Translations under genes and position numbers: made by a program | Shown here: positions 1,210 through 8,120 of the stretch, in pieces | Layout: each line of letters begins with the position of its first letter | Position numbering within the stretch: the stretch's first letter is position 1 | Notes under the pieces: generated by a model | Databases searched by the model: none | The model's input: the letters and a program-made list of their open reading frames with translations, nothing else | What the model was told of the DNA's origin: nothing | From: Micromonospora chokoriensis | GTDB taxonomy: Bacteria > Actinomycetota > Actinomycetes > Mycobacteriales > Micromonosporaceae | Direction: 5' to 3' | DNA: 16,229 bases | Assembly: GCF_000718555.1 (NCBI RefSeq) | Contig: NZ_JOAN01000038.1 | Span: 1 to 16,229, forward strand

Positions 1210-1875
1210 TCAGAGCCAGACCACGATCCCGGTCAGGTCGTTGAGGACTGCGGCCACGCCCGCCCGGATGGCCGCCGCGCAGCGATCCGCGGTGAACGAG
1301 TTCGGGTCGTACGTCGAGGACATACCGAGCCCTTCACCACGGAACGACGCGCCGTCCCAGTCGACTGCGGTGACGTTGTGGGTGGGCTCGGCCAACTCCG
1401 CGCCCACCACGAGGAAGTTCTCATCCAGGTGGTTCGGGGTGACCAGCGCGAGCGCGTCGATGAGGTCGTTGCCCGCGCCGACGATGAGGTCCGGGCCCAT
1501 CTCCATCGCCTTGGCGATGCTGGGAACGGGGTCGTGCGCCTTGCCGACGGCGATCGTCCTGAGGTCGACGTGCTCGTCGTCGGCCCACTCCTTGACCGCC
1601 GTCACGAGGGCCTTGGTCGGGTTGTCCTCGCCGCTGGTCAGCAGGACGACCCGGTAGTCCTTCGGCGGGTGGACGCCGGCCCAGGAGCCGGGCTGCGGCG
1701 TGATGGTCGCCTCCGGGGCGGGCTTCACGGAGGGGTCGACGAACCCCGGGCCGAGGGTGCCGATGGCGCTGGGCGCCGGATGTGGCTCGGACCAGTCATC
1801 GCTGGAGCTACTACAGGCGGTGACCAGAGCGGCGGTCGCGGCCAGCATGGCAACGGCCCGAAGCGGGGGGCGCAA
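1210..1875 (-). CDS. Lipoprotein resembling BMP-type substrate-binding proteins
   Basis: This 221-aa exported lipoprotein has a short signal peptide ending in the lipobox LVTACS, so Cys21 should be lipidated and the protein held on the outer face of the membrane. A low-complexity Ser/Pro linker follows, to about residue 60. The folded part (YRVVLLTSGEDN, GPDLIVGAGNDLIDAL, NFLVVGAEL, NVTAVDWDG) resembles the first lobe of basic membrane protein (BMP/Med) substrate-binding proteins, which bind nucleosides or similar ligands for ABC transporters. It is much shorter than the usual roughly 350 residues and no transporter genes lie nearby, so a ligand-sensing or orphan role is as likely as transport. 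The start is a TTG at 1873-1875, chosen because GGAGG lies 9 nt upstream; an internal ATG at residue 10 would shorten the signal peptide too far. It is divergent from the HupE-like gene. Confidence 0.75.
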   Translation of the reverse strand: MRPPLRAVAMLAATAALVTACSSSSDDWSEPHPAPSAIGTLGPGFVDPSVKPAPEATITPQPGSWAGVHPPKDYRVVLLTSGEDNPTKALVTAVKEWADDEHVDLRTIAVGKAHDPVPSIAKAMEMGPDLIVGAGNDLIDALALVTPNHLDENFLVVGAELAEPTHNVTAVDWDGASFRGEGLGMSSTYDPNSFTADRCAAAIRAGVAAVLNDLTGIVVWL

Positions 1876-2010
1876 GGTGATCGTCCTCCGAGTGGTGGCG
1901 GAAAGTGCGCGTACGTCTTCGTATTCCTATCTCAATTCCGGTCCCCGGCAATCGGTGGGTGGCCCTTCGGCGATTTTGTTTTCCGGCGGTTTGCCGGTGC
2001 GCGGGCTGGT

Positions 2011-2021
2011 GTTCACCCACG
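2011..2021 (+). promoter_or_regulatory. Single PHO-box-like half-site
   Basis: GTTCACCCACG at 2011-2021 contains the seven bases GTTCACC that head each 11-nt PhoP repeat in Streptomyces. It lies 35 nt before the HupE-like start codon. Neither neighbouring 11-mer matches, so on its own it is a weak candidate. It is listed because a fuller site precedes the next gene. Confidence 0.25.
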
Positions 2022-2056
2022 ACATGCAGCGTGCACTGGCCAACCGAGGGAGTCGA

Positions 2057-3274
2057 ATGTTAGGCCGCGTCCGCCGTACCGTTATCGTCGCCGCTGTCGG
2101 TTTCGCCGCAGCGGTGGTTCCGTTTCTGGGCGCCGAACCGGCGTCCGCGCACGGTTTCTCATCGACTGTGTACGCAAAAATTGAAGCGGGAGATGAGGGT
2201 CACATCCGCACCGCGGTGGAGCTCGAATATGACCTCCTCGTCGTGTCCGCCGCCGATTCGGGTCACGACGATCCGCTCTTTCAGGCGGGAACCGCCGCAT
2301 TCGAAGCGGGCGACGCCGGCGCCCAGGCCGCCGCGTTGAAGAGTCACGCGTCGACGGTCCTCACGTACGTCTCCGACCGGTTCTCGGTGAGTTCCCGGGA
2401 CGCGGCCTGCCGGCCGACGCAGGTGGGCGACGCGACGATCAGTGCGCGCGACGGCGTGCCGCACGCGAACCTGCTGCTGGACTGGACCTGCCCCGAACGG
2501 GTCGGCGAGCACGTGGTGCGCAGCGGCCTCTTCCCGGACGGCGAGGGCTACGTCAAGGGCACGAAGACGATCGTCACCTACGAGATCGACGCCCGCTCGG
2601 GCAGTGCGGCGCTCGACGCCGCCAATCCGTCCTTCTCGACCGGGCAGGCCTGGTACCAGCGTTTCGGGGAGTTCTTCCTCCTGGGCGCCGAGCACCTGCT
2701 GAGCGGGATCGACCACATCCTGTTCCTGCTGGCGCTGATCGCCGGATCGCGGCGGCTCCGGGAGATCGTGCTCGCGGCCACCAGCTTCACCCTGGCGCAC
2801 TCGGTGACGTTCATGCTCGCCGCGCTTGGCCTGGTCGAGGTGCCGGGGGCGATCGTGGAGCCGATCATCGCGTTGTCGATCGCCGTCGTCGCCGGCTGGC
2901 ATCTGTGGGGGATCTGGCGGCGTGGTGAGCACGCGACCGACCTGGAGGCGGCCGGGCACGGTCACCTCAGCCTGGACCGGGCCGGCTGGATCCGCCTCGC
3001 GGTGGTGTTCTGCTTCGGCCTCGTGCACGGCCTGGGCTTCGCGGGCGCGTTGGGTATCGACGAGGCATGGTCGTGGACCCTGCTGTGGTCGCTGCTGGTG
3101 TTCAACGTCGGCATCGAGGTCGTTCAGTTGACGATTATCGCTGTCGTCTTCCCGCTGCTGTTCCTGCTGCGCCGCCGTGCGCCGAAAGCCGGCCTCTGGG
3201 CGACCGGGGCTGTTTCTGCTGGCGTGTCCATTATGGGGCTGATCTGGTTCGTGCAGCGTATTTCTGGATCATGA
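2057..3274 (+). CDS. HupE/UreJ-family membrane protein with exported N-terminal domain
   Basis: This 405-aa protein has a signal peptide (residues 1-31, cleavage probably after ASA), an extracytoplasmic domain of about 170 residues, and a C-terminal bundle of about six or seven membrane helices. The membrane part carries the conserved pattern of the HupE/UreJ_2 family: EHLLSGIDHILF (His213, Asp219, His220), FTLAHS (His248), FGLVHGLGFAG (His324) and FNVGIEVVQL. HupE and UreJ are metal (nickel) permeases of hydrogenase and urease systems, but no such genes are nearby, so the metal here is unknown. Predicted cleavage leaves His32 as the new N-terminus (HGFSS), as in some copper-binding exported proteins; this is inference. 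GAGGG lies 6 nt before the ATG. The phosphatase gene follows on the same strand after 137 bp. Confidence 0.8.
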   Translation: MLGRVRRTVIVAAVGFAAAVVPFLGAEPASAHGFSSTVYAKIEAGDEGHIRTAVELEYDLLVVSAADSGHDDPLFQAGTAAFEAGDAGAQAAALKSHASTVLTYVSDRFSVSSRDAACRPTQVGDATISARDGVPHANLLLDWTCPERVGEHVVRSGLFPDGEGYVKGTKTIVTYEIDARSGSAALDAANPSFSTGQAWYQRFGEFFLLGAEHLLSGIDHILFLLALIAGSRRLREIVLAATSFTLAHSVTFMLAALGLVEVPGAIVEPIIALSIAVVAGWHLWGIWRRGEHATDLEAAGHGHLSLDRAGWIRLAVVFCFGLVHGLGFAGALGIDEAWSWTLLWSLLVFNVGIEVVQLTIIAVVFPLLFLLRRRAPKAGLWATGAVSAGVSIMGLIWFVQRISGS

Positions 3275-3318
3275 GTAAGGCTAAGTAGTTCGTGAAGTGC
3301 AGTCTTTCGCAAGATCAC

Positions 3319-3340
3319 GTTCATGATCGGTTCACCAGGC
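3319..3340 (+). promoter_or_regulatory. Probable PHO box (two 11-nt direct repeats) before the phosphatase gene
   Basis: GTTCATGATCG (3319-3329) is followed directly by GTTCACCAGGC (3330-3340). This is the arrangement of the actinobacterial PhoP site: tandem 11-nt units whose first seven bases follow GTTCACC. A possible -10, TGTAAT at 3351-3356, places the -35 position (about 3328-3333) inside the second repeat, the usual geometry for PhoP-activated promoters. The resulting leader would be about 50 nt, ending in the AAGGGA ribosome site. The downstream gene encodes an exported phosphatase, which fits phosphate control. Confidence 0.65.
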
Positions 3341-3411
3341 AGCGAAAGCGTGTAATTGCTTCCCCGGCGTCGGGTGAAGACACATTCATTTCTCTATTTG
3401 AAAAGGGAACA

Positions 3412-5385
3412 ATGTCGATGACATTGAACACATGGGTCTCCGCGCCCATGCGGCGGCGCCTGGTCGCCGGGGTCGCAGCCGGGTTCCTCGGAATGGGCGC
3501 GGCTCTCGGCAGTGGCCTGATGGCCTCTGCGAGTGCGGCTGAGTCCACCACGATCACAGGTGTGGTCCTCGGCGTCGGCGCCAACGAGACCCAGCGCATC
3601 GTGACCTGGTACTCGTCCGCCGACACCGCGCAGAAGATCCAGCTCGCGCCGACGGCTGAGATCGTCAACGGAGAGTTCCCGGCCAGCGCCCTCAGCTTCG
3701 ACGCTGTTGGCGCGGCGAACACCTCCACCACCGGCTTCAACCGGCACGCCACGATCAGCAACCTGCGCGAGAACACGGCGTACTCGTACCGGGTCGGCGC
3801 CGAGGGCAGCTGGTCCCCGGCGTACGCCTTCAAGACGCAGGACTTCGAGGGCGACTACAACTTCTTGTTCTTCGGTGACCCGCAGATCGGTTCCTCCGGC
3901 GACGTCGCGAAGGACCAGGCCGGTTGGGCCGAGACGCTGAAGGTCGCCACCACGGCGAACCCGGACACCGAGATGCTGGTGTCCGCCGGTGACCACGTCG
4001 AGTCCGCGAACAACGAGGACCAGTGGAACGCGTACCTCTCCCCGGAGCAGCTGCGCCAGTACCCCACCGCGGCCACCATCGGTAACCACGATGTCGGCGG
4101 CAAGTCCTGGGAGCAGCACCACTTCACCCCGAACACGGACCGCTCAGCCCAGTACTACACCGGTGACCAGGCGACCCGCTCCGGCGGCGACTACTGGTAC
4201 ATCTACAAGGACGTGCTGTTCATCGACCTGAACAGCAACAGCTACGTCAACCCCGCTGACGGCTCCGCCGGTGGCGACGCGGCGCACGTCGCCTACGTCA
4301 CCGACATCGTCAAGAAGCACGGCAACGAGGCCAAGTGGAAGGTGCTGGTTTACCACCACTCCATCTACTCGGCGGCGAGCCACGCCACCGACGCGGACAA
4401 CAAGAACCGCCGCAAGGACTTCACGACGGCGTTCTCCGACCTCGGCATCGACATGGTGCTGCAGGGTCACGACCACGTCTACACCCGCAGCTACTCGATC
4501 AAGAACGGCCAGAAGGAGAACCCGGCTGAGAAGCCGGGCGCTGCCGACGTGTTCCCCGGCCCGGGTGGCGTCATCTACGTGACGGCCAACTCGGCCTCTG
4601 GCTCGAAGTACTACGACATCAAGAAGCCGGACAACACCGGCACCGGTGTCGAGGGCCTCGGCCCGGACCCGCTGAACCCGAACAACTACTGGTTCAACTC
4701 GGTGCAGAACCAGGAGCACGTGCGCAGCTACGTCAAGGTGCAGGTCAAGGCCGACAAGCTGGTGCTCCAGAACATCCGCAGCGGCACCTGCGCGGCGCCG
4801 AACGCGGCGGTCGAGAAGGGCCTGTCCTGCACCAACACCGCCGATGGCCAGCCGGTCGGCTCCATCGTCGACAACACCACGATCCACCCGTACCACGCTG
4901 ACGGCCAGGCCATCCAGGTCAACGTGCCGAACCCGGCTCCGGGTGAGTTCGGCTGGACGATCGACGGCTACAACGGTCTCGTCAACCTGGGCACCGCTCA
5001 GGAGCGCAACGGCACCTACTTCGAGGCGACCGGCAAGATCAACCCGATCCTCGTGTCGGACAGCCGCCGCTCGCTCACCCCGTGGTCGATCTCGGCCAAC
5101 GTCGGCGACTTCCAGGACGCCGACAAGAAGTTCTCCGGCTCCTACCTGGGCTGGAACCCGTACGTGCTCGACGGTGGCGCGGGTGCCGAGGCCGGTGCTC
5201 CGGTCCTGTCGTCCCTCGACGACCAGGGCAAGGGCCTCTCGGTCTCCAGCGCCCTCGCCGCGGCCGCGCAGGGTCACGCGCGGGGCGGCGCCCGGCTCGG
5301 TGCCGACCTGGATCTGAAGATCCCGGACAGCATCGCGAAGGGTGACTACCGCACCACGCTCACGATCACCGCGCTGAGCAGCTGA
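3412..5385 (+). CDS. Secreted purple-acid-phosphatase-like metallophosphoesterase with WxL-like C-terminal domain
   Basis: This 657-aa exported protein has a signal peptide of about 43 residues (RRR, hydrophobic core, ASASAA). Next is a fibronectin-III-like domain of about 100 residues, as in purple acid phosphatases (NLRENTAYSYRVG). The calcineurin-type metallophosphatase domain shows all its metal-ligand motifs: GDPQ (Asp156), GDHVE (Asp194), GNHD (Asn225, His226), VYHHS (His315/316) and GHDHVY (His353, His355). It should hydrolyse phosphomonoesters outside the cell. The last 150 residues form a beta-rich domain with Trp515, LTPWSI (Trp558), YLGWNP (Trp581) and an ending TTLTITALSS, resembling the WxL wall-binding domain of Firmicutes although the W-x-L triplets are not exact. 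No LPXTG or membrane anchor is present. The start ATG has AAGGGA close upstream; the ATG at 3418 is an equal alternative. A PHO box precedes the gene and a DUF916-type gene follows. Confidence 0.88.
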   Translation: MSMTLNTWVSAPMRRRLVAGVAAGFLGMGAALGSGLMASASAAESTTITGVVLGVGANETQRIVTWYSSADTAQKIQLAPTAEIVNGEFPASALSFDAVGAANTSTTGFNRHATISNLRENTAYSYRVGAEGSWSPAYAFKTQDFEGDYNFLFFGDPQIGSSGDVAKDQAGWAETLKVATTANPDTEMLVSAGDHVESANNEDQWNAYLSPEQLRQYPTAATIGNHDVGGKSWEQHHFTPNTDRSAQYYTGDQATRSGGDYWYIYKDVLFIDLNSNSYVNPADGSAGGDAAHVAYVTDIVKKHGNEAKWKVLVYHHSIYSAASHATDADNKNRRKDFTTAFSDLGIDMVLQGHDHVYTRSYSIKNGQKENPAEKPGAADVFPGPGGVIYVTANSASGSKYYDIKKPDNTGTGVEGLGPDPLNPNNYWFNSVQNQEHVRSYVKVQVKADKLVLQNIRSGTCAAPNAAVEKGLSCTNTADGQPVGSIVDNTTIHPYHADGQAIQVNVPNPAPGEFGWTIDGYNGLVNLGTAQERNGTYFEATGKINPILVSDSRRSLTPWSISANVGDFQDADKKFSGSYLGWNPYVLDGGAGAEAGAPVLSSLDDQGKGLSVSSALAAAAQGHARGGARLGADLDLKIPDSIAKGDYRTTLTITALSS

Positions 5386-5401
5386 TCGAACAGTTCCATC
5401 G

Positions 5402-5435
5402 GGCGGGGTAGGCACCTTCGGGGGCCTACCCCGCC
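5402..5435 (+). terminator. 12-bp perfect hairpin between phosphatase and DUF916-type genes
   Basis: GGCGGGGTAGGC (5402-5413) pairs exactly with GCCTACCCCGCC (5424-5435). The 10-nt loop contains CCTTCGGG, a UUCG tetraloop closed by C-G pairs, which would make a very stable structure. It starts 17 nt after the phosphatase stop and ends 41 nt before the next start. No T-run follows, so it may be a terminator, a partial terminator that lowers expression of the next gene, or a 3'-end stabiliser. Confidence 0.7.
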
Positions 5436-5476
5436 ACCCATTTGCAATCCGTCCAAGATCACCTCAAGGAACCGGT

Positions 5477-6556
5477 ATGTACCCGTCCGTAACGCGCTGG
5501 AAGACCACGCCCGCCGCACTCCTCCGTACGACCGCACTGTCCCTGCTCGCCGTCGTCGCGGCCGGCGGTGTCGGCGCTGGTCCCGCCCAGGCCGCGGACG
5601 GCAACGTCGCCTGGACGGTCCGGACGGCCTCCAACGGTTACGGCGAGGCCCGGTCCAGCTTCAGCTACGACGTCAACCCCGGTGGTGCCGTCGATGACGC
5701 CATGGTCGTGGCCAACCGCGGTCCGGCGCCGCTGACCCTCGCCGTGTACGCCGCCGACGGCTTCACCACCGACGCCGGCCAGCTCGACCTGCTCACCAAG
5801 GACAAGAAGTCCGTCGCGATCGGCGCCTGGGTGAAGGCGAACGCCGGCAGCGTCGTGATCCAGCCCGGAAAGACCGCTCAGGTCCCGTTCAAGGTCAGCG
5901 TCCCGGAGAACGCCACGCCCGGGGACTACGTCGGTGGCATCCTCACCACGCTGACCCAGTCCGACCAGGCCGAGGGGATCAACGTCGACCGGCGTCTCGG
6001 TATCCGGATCAAGTTGCGGGTGGGTGGCGAGCTGAAGCCCAACCTCGCGATCGAGAACCTCCATGTGAAGTACGCCGGGCCGACCAACCCGTTCAGCAAG
6101 GGTGACGCCACCATCACCTACAAGATCCACAACGTTGGCAACGCCGCCCTCTCCGGGCAGCAGGCGGTATCGGTCTCGGGGCCGTTCGGCGTACTGCGAG
6201 TCCGGGCGAAGGACATCGCCGCGCCGCCGGAGCTGCTCCCCGGCGAGAGCTGGGACGTGACCGTGCCCGTCCACGGTGTGGCGCCCACCATCTCACTGGC
6301 CGCGACTGCGACCCTGACGCCCCTGCTCACCGACGCCTCCGGCTCCACCACGCCGCTCAAGCCGGTCAAGGTCACCGCGCACGGCTGGGCCCTGCCGTGG
6401 ATGCTGGCGCTGGTGCTCGTCGTGCTGATCGCCGCGCTCGTCGGGGCGTTGCTCTACCGACGCCGCAACAAGGCGCAGCGCAAGGCACGCGAGGACGCCC
6501 GCGTACGTGACGCTGTCGAGCAGGCGCTCCGCGGTCCGGAGCAGCAGACCTCCTGA
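5477..6556 (+). CDS. DUF916-type (WxL-interacting) membrane-anchored surface protein
   Basis: This 359-aa protein has a signal peptide (about residues 1-39, ending AQA), two beta-sandwich regions, one C-terminal membrane helix (about 306-326, MLALVLVVLIAALVGALLY) and a basic cytoplasmic tail of about 33 residues. The first region (FSYDVNPGG, DDAMVVANRG, TPGDYVGGI, RLGIRIKLRVGG) matches the DUF916 peptidoglycan-binding domain of WxL-interacting proteins. The second (YKIHNVGNAALSG, LLPGESWDVTV) resembles their host- or partner-binding domain. In Firmicutes such proteins sit beside WxL-domain proteins and form surface complexes with them. Here the preceding gene ends in a WxL-like domain, which supports a pairing. 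AAGGAA lies 5 nt before the ATG. The stop falls only 4 nt from the stop of the convergent ThDP-enzyme gene. Confidence 0.82.
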   Translation: MYPSVTRWKTTPAALLRTTALSLLAVVAAGGVGAGPAQAADGNVAWTVRTASNGYGEARSSFSYDVNPGGAVDDAMVVANRGPAPLTLAVYAADGFTTDAGQLDLLTKDKKSVAIGAWVKANAGSVVIQPGKTAQVPFKVSVPENATPGDYVGGILTTLTQSDQAEGINVDRRLGIRIKLRVGGELKPNLAIENLHVKYAGPTNPFSKGDATITYKIHNVGNAALSGQQAVSVSGPFGVLRVRAKDIAAPPELLPGESWDVTVPVHGVAPTISLAATATLTPLLTDASGSTTPLKPVKVTAHGWALPWMLALVLVVLIAALVGALLYRRRNKAQRKAREDARVRDAVEQALRGPEQQTS

Positions 6557-6560
6557 GCAC

Positions 6561-8120
6561 TTAGACGGCCGACGGGATCACCGCCTGGATGAGGTGTGGT
6601 CCCGGTTCGGCGATGGCCCGGGAGAACTGCTCGGCGAGTTCCTCGGCGGTCGTGGCACGGCTGGCGGGCATGCCGAAACCCTCCGCCAGCTTCACGTAGT
6701 CGATCGCCGGGTTGGCCAGGTCGAACAGCGGGATGTCGTCGGCCTTGGCCGGGCCCGGGGGGAGAGTGAAGTAACCCCACTCCGCGCGCAGGATCCCGTA
6801 CGCGTGGTTGTTGAGGATCACGTTTGTGATGTTCAGCTTCTCGCGGGCCTGGGTCCAGAGCGCGGTGAGGGTGTACATGGCGCACCCGTCGGCCTCCAGG
6901 GCCACCACCGGCCGGTCGGGGGCGGCGATGGCGGCTCCGACGGCCAGGGGCAGACCGTCGCCCATCGCGCCACCGCACTGCATGAGCACGTCGTGCCGGG
7001 GAGCGCCCTCGGTCGCCGCGGCCAGGGCGGTGCCGGAGCTGACGGTCTCGTCGATGACGATCGCCCGTTCGGGCAGCAGCGCGCCGATGACCTCGGTCCA
7101 GCTCTTGAGGGTGAGCGGCCCGCTCGGCATCGCCGGCCGTTGCGGCTTGGTGACCTCGGGGGCAGTGTCCGGCGCTAGCAGGTCGGCGAGCTGCACGAGC
7201 GCGGCGACGGCATCCTGACCGGCCTCGGCGAGCGCGTGCGACTGGGCACCCTCCGGGACGAGGCAGCTCGGCAGGCCGGGGTAGGCGAAGAACGCGACGG
7301 GCTCCTTGGCGCCGGCGGTGATCACGTGCTTCACCCCGGCCAACTGCTTGACCGTCTGGTCGGGGAAGAAGCTCAGCCGAGGGAAGCTGGGCAGGCCGGC
7401 GCCGTGCTCAAGCCGGTTGGAGTAGAGCTCCTGCAACACCCGTGCGCCGGTGGCGGCACCGATGCGGCTCGCCGCGCAGAGGCCCGCCTCGCGGACCGCC
7501 GGACCGCCGATGACCAGGGCCACCGGTTCACCGCTGCGCAGCACGTCCGCGATTTGCGCGATCACCTCCTTGGTCACCGGCTGCGGCGGCTTGAGGGCGG
7601 CCGGCGTGCCGACCACTCCGCCGTCGTTCCACGAGGCGTCCGCCGGCACGATCACGGTGGCGACCTGCCCGGGTGGTTCCACCGCTGCGGCCAGGGTGGC
7701 GGCGGCGTCGGTCCCGGTGCCCGCGGCGTTCTCGGGGCGGCGGACCGAGCCACGCAGCCAACTGCCGAGCAGGGCGATCTCCGAGGTCAGGGGCGAGTCG
7801 TAGACGTTGTGGTAGGTCGGGTGGTCGCCCACGATGCTGACCACCGGCGAGTTGGCGCGACGGCTGTTGTGCAGGTTCGTCAGCCCGTACGCGAAGCCCG
7901 CTCCCAGGTGCAGCATCGTCGCGGCGGGTTTGCCGGCGATGCGGGCGTAACCGTCGGCCGCGCCGGTGGCCACGCCCTCGAAGAGAGTCAGCACCCCGCG
8001 AAGTTGCGGTAGGCCGTCTATCGCTCCGACCATGTGCATCTCCGTGGTGCCCGCATTGGCGAAGACGACCTCCAAGCCGCCGTCCGCCAGCGTCCGCATG
8101 AGTGCTTCAGCCCCGTTCAT
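6561..8120 (-). CDS. ThDP-dependent enzyme, benzoylformate decarboxylase / acetolactate synthase-like
   Basis: This 519-aa protein has the three-domain layout of the acetolactate synthase large-subunit superfamily: pyrimidine-binding, central and pyrophosphate-binding domains. The cofactor-activating Glu is Glu48 (LFEGVATGAADGYARI). The diphosphate/Mg motif is EADGCAMYTLTALW followed by NVILNNHAYG, so the usual GDG is ADG (Asp411) while the closing NN (437-438) is kept. ALW...NN.xYGxLR and the active-site-like LHLGAG (His71) resemble benzoylformate decarboxylase more than true acetolactate synthase, but the second catalytic His of that enzyme is not evident, and NAGTTE replaces its NPGSNE. 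No ilvN-type regulatory subunit lies nearby, so a 2-oxoacid decarboxylase or carboligase of unknown substrate is the safest call. The ATG at 8120 is preferred over the GTG at 8129 because GAGAGG lies 8 nt before the ATG. Confidence 0.85.
   Translation of the reverse strand: MNGAEALMRTLADGGLEVVFANAGTTEMHMVGAIDGLPQLRGVLTLFEGVATGAADGYARIAGKPAATMLHLGAGFAYGLTNLHNSRRANSPVVSIVGDHPTYHNVYDSPLTSEIALLGSWLRGSVRRPENAAGTGTDAAATLAAAVEPPGQVATVIVPADASWNDGGVVGTPAALKPPQPVTKEVIAQIADVLRSGEPVALVIGGPAVREAGLCAASRIGAATGARVLQELYSNRLEHGAGLPSFPRLSFFPDQTVKQLAGVKHVITAGAKEPVAFFAYPGLPSCLVPEGAQSHALAEAGQDAVAALVQLADLLAPDTAPEVTKPQRPAMPSGPLTLKSWTEVIGALLPERAIVIDETVSSGTALAAATEGAPRHDVLMQCGGAMGDGLPLAVGAAIAAPDRPVVALEADGCAMYTLTALWTQAREKLNITNVILNNHAYGILRAEWGYFTLPPGPAKADDIPLFDLANPAIDYVKLAEGFGMPASRATTAEELAEQFSRAIAEPGPHLIQAVIPSAV

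Follow-up and report, generated by a model that had tools for sequence, protein, structure and literature searches.

How could an exported enzyme that lacks an LPXTG motif be held at the surface of an actinomycete? The question is raised by three grouped plus-strand genes, coding for a HupE/UreJ_2 membrane protein, a phosphatase and a DUF916 protein, in a 16,229-nucleotide stretch of Micromonospora chokoriensis DNA (the window), which makes up contig C38 in a genome of 6.97 Mb. The initial annotation described the last two genes as a secreted phosphatase with a WxL-like tail and its DUF916-type partner. The two open reading frames do lie side by side on the plus strand, at 3412-5385 (657 residues, within a frame listed from 3292) and 5477-6556 (359 residues), and the reported absence of LPXTG was confirmed, the LPxT[GAS] motif occurring in neither protein. 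Our analysis suggests that the tail probably binds the DUF916 receptor encoded by the neighbouring gene, through that receptor's first domain, holding the exported phosphatase non-covalently at the cell surface; the basis of this docking is genomics together with a predicted tandem model. The elements involved are the following.

3412..5385, plus strand: secreted purple-acid-type metallophosphatase with a C-terminal WxL-like tail (start codon as in the initial annotation)
4906..5382, plus strand: WxL-like domain, residues 499-657 (hhalign to Firmicutes WxL; PF13731 E 0.039, below cut-off; AlphaFold2 predicted local distance difference test, pLDDT, 90.6)
5059..5091, plus strand: D550-x-R552-(5)-W558-x-I560, corresponding to the first WxL motif and its D-x-R
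5477..6556, plus strand: DUF916 / WxLIP-like membrane protein (PF06030 above cut-off; family profile against Firmicutes WxLIP 95.1%)
5933..6028, plus strand: DUF916 β-hairpin, residues 153-184, proposed holder of the tail (hairpin lengths in tailed and tailless loci)
6038..6376, plus strand: second immunoglobulin (Ig)-like domain, at the DUF3324 position
6389..6553, plus strand: transmembrane helix, then a basic, probably cytoplasmic tail (hydropathy maximum at 308-326, followed by YRRRNKAQRK)

The extra C-terminal domain of the phosphatase is present in all 120 homologues listed, and the protein ends in TTLTITALSS as had been noted; tryptophans 515, 558 and 581 are at their reported places and are invariant in the 121 aligned sequences (the window and these homologues). 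Mean identity to the window over the same homologues is 78.6% in the extra domain and 76.3% in the catalytic part. The tail occupies residues 499-657 of 657, the C-terminal position expected of a WxL domain. The proposed resemblance to WxL domains held for the first motif, W-x-[I/V/L], which is present as W558-x-I560, but not for the second, where the classical tryptophan is absent and the sequence reads T-I-T-A-L. W558 is preceded by D550 and R552, at W-8 and W-6, and all three residues are identical in the 121 sequences; in A1, a set of 19 actinobacterial tail sequences, the Asp and Arg are invariant and the Trp occurs in at least 90%. The presence of Asp eight and Arg six residues ahead of the Trp in the first motif is a rule for WxL domains given in passages of PMC9772566. 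Comparison of hidden Markov models bore out the relationship to WxL families, with an hhalign value of 94.1% (E 1.2e-7) for 19 actinobacterial against 10 Firmicutes sequences and of 0.6% for a control of the tail family against WxLIP. The excised window tail scored 14.4 bits against PF13731 (E 0.039), without reaching the curated cut-off of 25 bits; no WxL domain was detected in Pfam and NCBIfam scans of the full-length phosphatase, and a PF13731 search across the bacterium's own genome returned no match. Of the 19 tail relatives, 11 matched PF13731 at E<=0.1, and in a rescan of 10 relatives the congener at locus L017 reached 25.5 bits (cut-off 25), eight scored 15.1-20.7 and one gave no match. 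A search of PDB sequences with the tail profile yielded chance-level matches alone (E 0.08 and up), and BLASTP between the tail and a portion of 9i25_A, a solved WxL chain, found nothing. The AlphaFold2 model of the tail is confident (predicted template modelling score 0.84, with the pLDDT given above). Judged from these profiles, the tail is a distant WxL relative beneath the Pfam cut-off, and is termed WxL-like here.

The neighbouring protein proved to be of DUF916 type, as annotated, scoring 40.5 bits against PF06030 (cut-off 27.3), and its membrane anchor was recovered as a hydrophobic segment from residue 308 (mean hydropathy 2.93 over 308-326) with basic residues after it; the basic C-terminal tail is partly conserved among homologues. 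No DUF3324 match was found in the protein, and the two-domain fold of a relative (L057) matches WxLIP over 235 residues. The WxLIP motif NQIDKxxxYFDLK was not found by eye in the window protein, which has EARSSFSYDVNPGG at about that place. The helix and basic tail fit anchoring in the bacterium's own membrane, contrary to the proposal, made in passages of PMC10599100, that the WxLIP helix enters the host membrane.

From the observed domain content, remote homology, conserved gene pairing and a hairpin length that differs with tail presence, we infer physical binding, strand-completion geometry, location, substrate and regulation as follows. The phosphatase would be exported, and its C-terminal WxL-like domain would bind the first domain of the DUF916 protein, a putative WxLIP-like receptor with two outer Ig-like domains, one C-terminal membrane helix and a basic cytoplasmic tail. 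The DUF916 β-hairpin, which by profile alignment would correspond to the hairpin that enters WxL in Firmicutes (PMC10599100), probably completes the incomplete β-sandwich of the tail, and the enzyme would thereby be retained without a covalent bond, either on the outer face of the membrane or within the wall. A surface-held enzyme is likely because the membrane-anchored partner probably grips the tail, and such an enzyme, probably controlled by PhoP, could free phosphate from organic phosphate compounds. The tandem tail-partner model was folded from alignment A8; the earlier alignments A6 and, for a few residues, A7 had placed partner N-termini onto the tail.

Consistent co-occurrence of the two genes was borne out in a survey of 148 genomes of the class (actinomycetes), in which 60 of 72 PF06030 matches (E<=0.01) lie no more than 6 kb from an A1-like domain; for 52 of the matches this domain immediately precedes them in the same orientation. 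Neither refuting outcome named in the initial annotation was thus obtained. A1 was derived from such DUF916 neighbourhoods; in the 25 PF06030-matching genomes outside its making, the domain lies within 6 kb in 28/39 cases and directly upstream in 23/39. An actinobacterial DUF916 profile found 108 genes, 89 with a WxL-like domain within 6 kb and 78 with one directly upstream. Conversely, among 130 WxL-like matches of at least 300 nucleotides, 104 lie within 6 kb of a DUF916-like gene and 26 do not. Related genes of both families occur together in 54 of the 148 genomes, several of the tails carrying enzymes, and DUF916 alone and WxL-like alone in four genomes each (this tally omits 13 weak rows of alignment A5, E 8.8e-7 to 8.6e-4, and joins two fragments in genome G012). 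The bacterium's own genome contains three further DUF916-like genes, each immediately preceded by a gene for a WxL-like protein, and four of its six WxL-like matches lie beside DUF916-like genes; on contig C38 the window tail is the single match of the WxL-like profile. One paralogous pair of this genome (L006, 26-3011), a small WxL-like protein and a DUF916 protein, lies directly behind another open reading frame. In genome G087, contigs C34 and C40 contain WxL-like stretches in 87-residue frames, perhaps fragments.

Of the 79 loci collected, 52 contain a close phosphatase, 48 of them with sufficient downstream sequence. Tail and downstream DUF916 gene occur together in 31 of these 48, a tail alone in one (L116), DUF916 alone in eight and neither in eight. 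Among the eight with neither, L127, L132, L133 and L134 terminate with signals resembling LPXTG or LAXTG, and L130 has a separate WxL-like protein adjoining and a DUF916 gene upstream. The hairpin, measured between fixed ends, is 32 residues long in 35/35 measurable tailed loci (36 minus L092, which is truncated by its contig), and in ten partners from tailless loci, among them L059 and L062, it measures 22, 23, 23, 26, 27, 28, 28, 28, 29 and 32, being shorter in nine of these; the L130 hairpin (31) was excluded from the tailless set, a WxL-like protein being nearby. These lengths are suggestive of a hairpin that varies with the presence of the tail. A different explanation is that the tail itself binds peptidoglycan, as Firmicutes WxL domains are described to do, even when added externally, in passages of PMC5817068, PMC10599100 and PMC9772566, the DUF916 protein merely stabilising it or being an independent wall protein. 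Conserved gene order and the hairpin lengths point instead to direct protein contact, and a downstream DUF916 gene is missing for just 1/32 tailed phosphatases; we consider the peptidoglycan explanation unlikely.

Several observations weigh against docking of the tail on the DUF916 receptor. Tandem folding with a linker may artificially bring the two domains together. For the tail model, the list of 50 solved structures contains pilin and other Ig-like domains; 9i25_A does not appear in it, which does not exclude a shared fold, and comparison of A1 with a portion of the 9i25_A sequence gave only 16% (E 0.0015). The gene pair can persist without the tail, since 8/39 phosphatase genes with a downstream DUF916 gene have no recognised tail. 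No LPXTG-like end is present in L123, L125, L128 and L130, which have neither tail nor downstream DUF916 gene, and one tailless partner, L112, keeps the full hairpin length. In the phosphatase tree (L106, L117 and L124, which end too soon after the phosphatase, were left out and L092 was retained) two changes suffice for the tail and three for DUF916, and all ten tailless partners measured for the hairpin belong to a single clade. With so few changes, and 2 pairs with a median p of 1 in an independent-pairs test, the tail-DUF916 correlation is not phylogenetically significant; the hairpin-tail correlation likewise falls short of statistical proof because the tailless cases form one clade and tree changes are few.

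The eight phosphatases that keep DUF916 beside them without a recognised tail, and the small number of independent losses, would suit a tail that serves as a plain Ig-like accessory module, such as one that binds carbohydrate, its adjacency to DUF916 being inherited and free of contact. However, WxL-like tails are also C-terminal, by Pfam, in HtaA, GDPD, GH18, S15 peptidase, M64 peptidase and Ig-like-domain proteins, and the domain adjoins DUF916 behind these unrelated parts, Ig repeats among them, as well as in small proteins. A single inherited neighbourhood fails to explain such a pattern, and an accessory role of this kind appears extremely unlikely. The Pfam scan took in 28 of the 47 WxL-like frames of loci L039-L078, 14 of the 28 having no other recognised domain; GDPD, M64, S15, GH18 and HtaA cargo was found in loci L066, L075, L077, L039, L040, L047 and L051.

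The tailless phosphatases of L108, L111, L112, L113, L115, L059 and L062 share a short terminal (A/S/D)WLQ, in some cases after low-complexity linkers. In a Solirubrobacter relative (L121) the phosphatase ends in another kind of tail, which contains GAYTKSLTFTLS close to its terminus, and a DUF916 gene adjoins.

The system is an enzyme-bearing, WxL-like variant of WxL/WxLIP. It resembles the Firmicutes WxL/WxLIP (Csc) arrangement in that a WxL-related domain comes directly before a DUF916 protein that combines two outer domains with a membrane helix at its C-terminus, and its gene order is that on the L. plantarum plasmid pPF. It differs in the actinomycete host, the missing second WxL motif, the presence of one WxL-like protein rather than two and the lack of a DUF3324 match by sequence. 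The cargo here is an enzyme, whereas in Firmicutes the cargo of large WxL proteins consists mostly of domains resembling adhesins, according to passages of PMC9772566; ConA-like lectin/glucanase-type domains occur in CscC of Firmicutes (sections of PMC1534035). Parts of PMC10599100, PMC9772566 and PMC1534035 describe the Firmicutes WxL clusters; completion of WxL by a DUF916 hairpin has, in portions of this literature, already been proposed for Firmicutes, and two E. faecium WxL proteins are reported to bind their transmembrane partner in vitro (sections of PMC5817068). Identity to the Enterococcus faecium WxLIP structures PDB 9i25 and 9i1y, with and without a long WxL, is 12-13%, and no paper on these entries was found in an open-access literature search. 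WxL proteins are placed mainly in Firmicutes and gut commensals in passages of PMC9772566 (>91% of 938 sequences), and almost wholly in Lactobacillales and Bacillales in passages of PMC10599100; no report of WxL-like enzyme tails in actinomycetes was found by title or abstract start in the open-access library searched.

The proposed strand completion is alike in principle to that of Gram-negative pilin chaperones, but would here serve as a permanent tether. The DUF916 protein might instead be a membrane-tethered folding chaperone, which would lend a strand after export and then release the enzyme, as periplasmic pilin chaperones do; this we judge very unlikely. Tethering to the DUF916 receptor could extend beyond the window. 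Somewhat short of an even prospect, in our estimate, is a widespread actinomycete enzyme-display system, in which WxL-like tails of phosphatases, a glycerophosphodiesterase, a chitinase-family hydrolase, peptidases and HtaA plug permanently into membrane-anchored DUF916 proteins by strand completion, the receptor helix lying in the bacterium's own membrane and not, as has been proposed in print, in that of a host. Such a system would offer a sortase-independent route for holding enzymes on Gram-positive cells and a possible function for genes now named just DUF916 or WxL protein peptidoglycan domain, and receptor orientation becomes testable in soil bacteria.

Ahead of the tail, the phosphatase has two recognised domains.

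3559..3837, plus strand: purple acid phosphatase N-terminal domain, residues 50-142 (PF16656, 57.5 bits)
3859..4482, plus strand: metallophosphoesterase domain, residues 150-357 (PF00149, 38.6 bits)

The motifs GDPQIG, GD, GNHD, HH and GHDH are conserved across the 121 sequences, and the enzyme shares 95% identity with a Micromonospora inaquosa phosphatase. An N-terminal signal-like segment, judged by eye, would serve as the export signal. The purple-type tyrosine seems to be absent, because the place of GDxxY, which we take to be the motif holding it, reads GDHVE. By sequence, the solved relatives are purple acid phosphatases (best E about 1e-9); the plant enzymes (2qfp, 1kbp) share the related catalytic domain and the N-terminal domain, whereas the Micromonospora enzyme differs from them in GDHVE and in its added WxL-like tail.

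Two further features lie upstream of the phosphatase gene, and a thiamine-pyrophosphate enzyme gene lies downstream of the DUF916 gene on the opposite strand.

2057..3274, plus strand: HupE/UreJ_2 membrane protein with a secreted N-terminal domain (PF13795, 125.5 bits), upstream neighbour in the cluster
3319..3336, plus strand: PHO-box-like direct repeat between the HupE and phosphatase genes (one mismatch to GTTCAYC-N4-GTTCAYC)

The N-terminal domain of the HupE/UreJ_2 protein would be of Ang-2 type, with His as its first residue once the signal peptide is cleaved, the start codon and cleavage site being the analyst's choice. AxAHG is present in 39/40 HupE relatives from the fetched loci, SSAHG in the remaining one, and HupE lies upstream in 35/39 DUF916-positive phosphatase loci. 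Metallophosphatases and DUF916 are frequent beside Ang-2 genes, themselves found in Actinomycetota only, according to passages of PMC12537917; HupE/Ang-2 is upstream in the window too, and those passages make no mention of a WxL-like phosphatase tail.

The repeat matches the Pho box given in passages of PMC7244524, and a match with one mismatch arises in 2/200 shuffles of the window; no sigma-70-type promoter was found in 1500-6700. Matches with at most two mismatches lie upstream of 14/41 DUF916-associated phosphatases, compared with 2.0% of 2199 blocks from the same loci; the 14 span several genera, but include only 1 of 11 Streptomyces loci, and closely related species do not count as independent.
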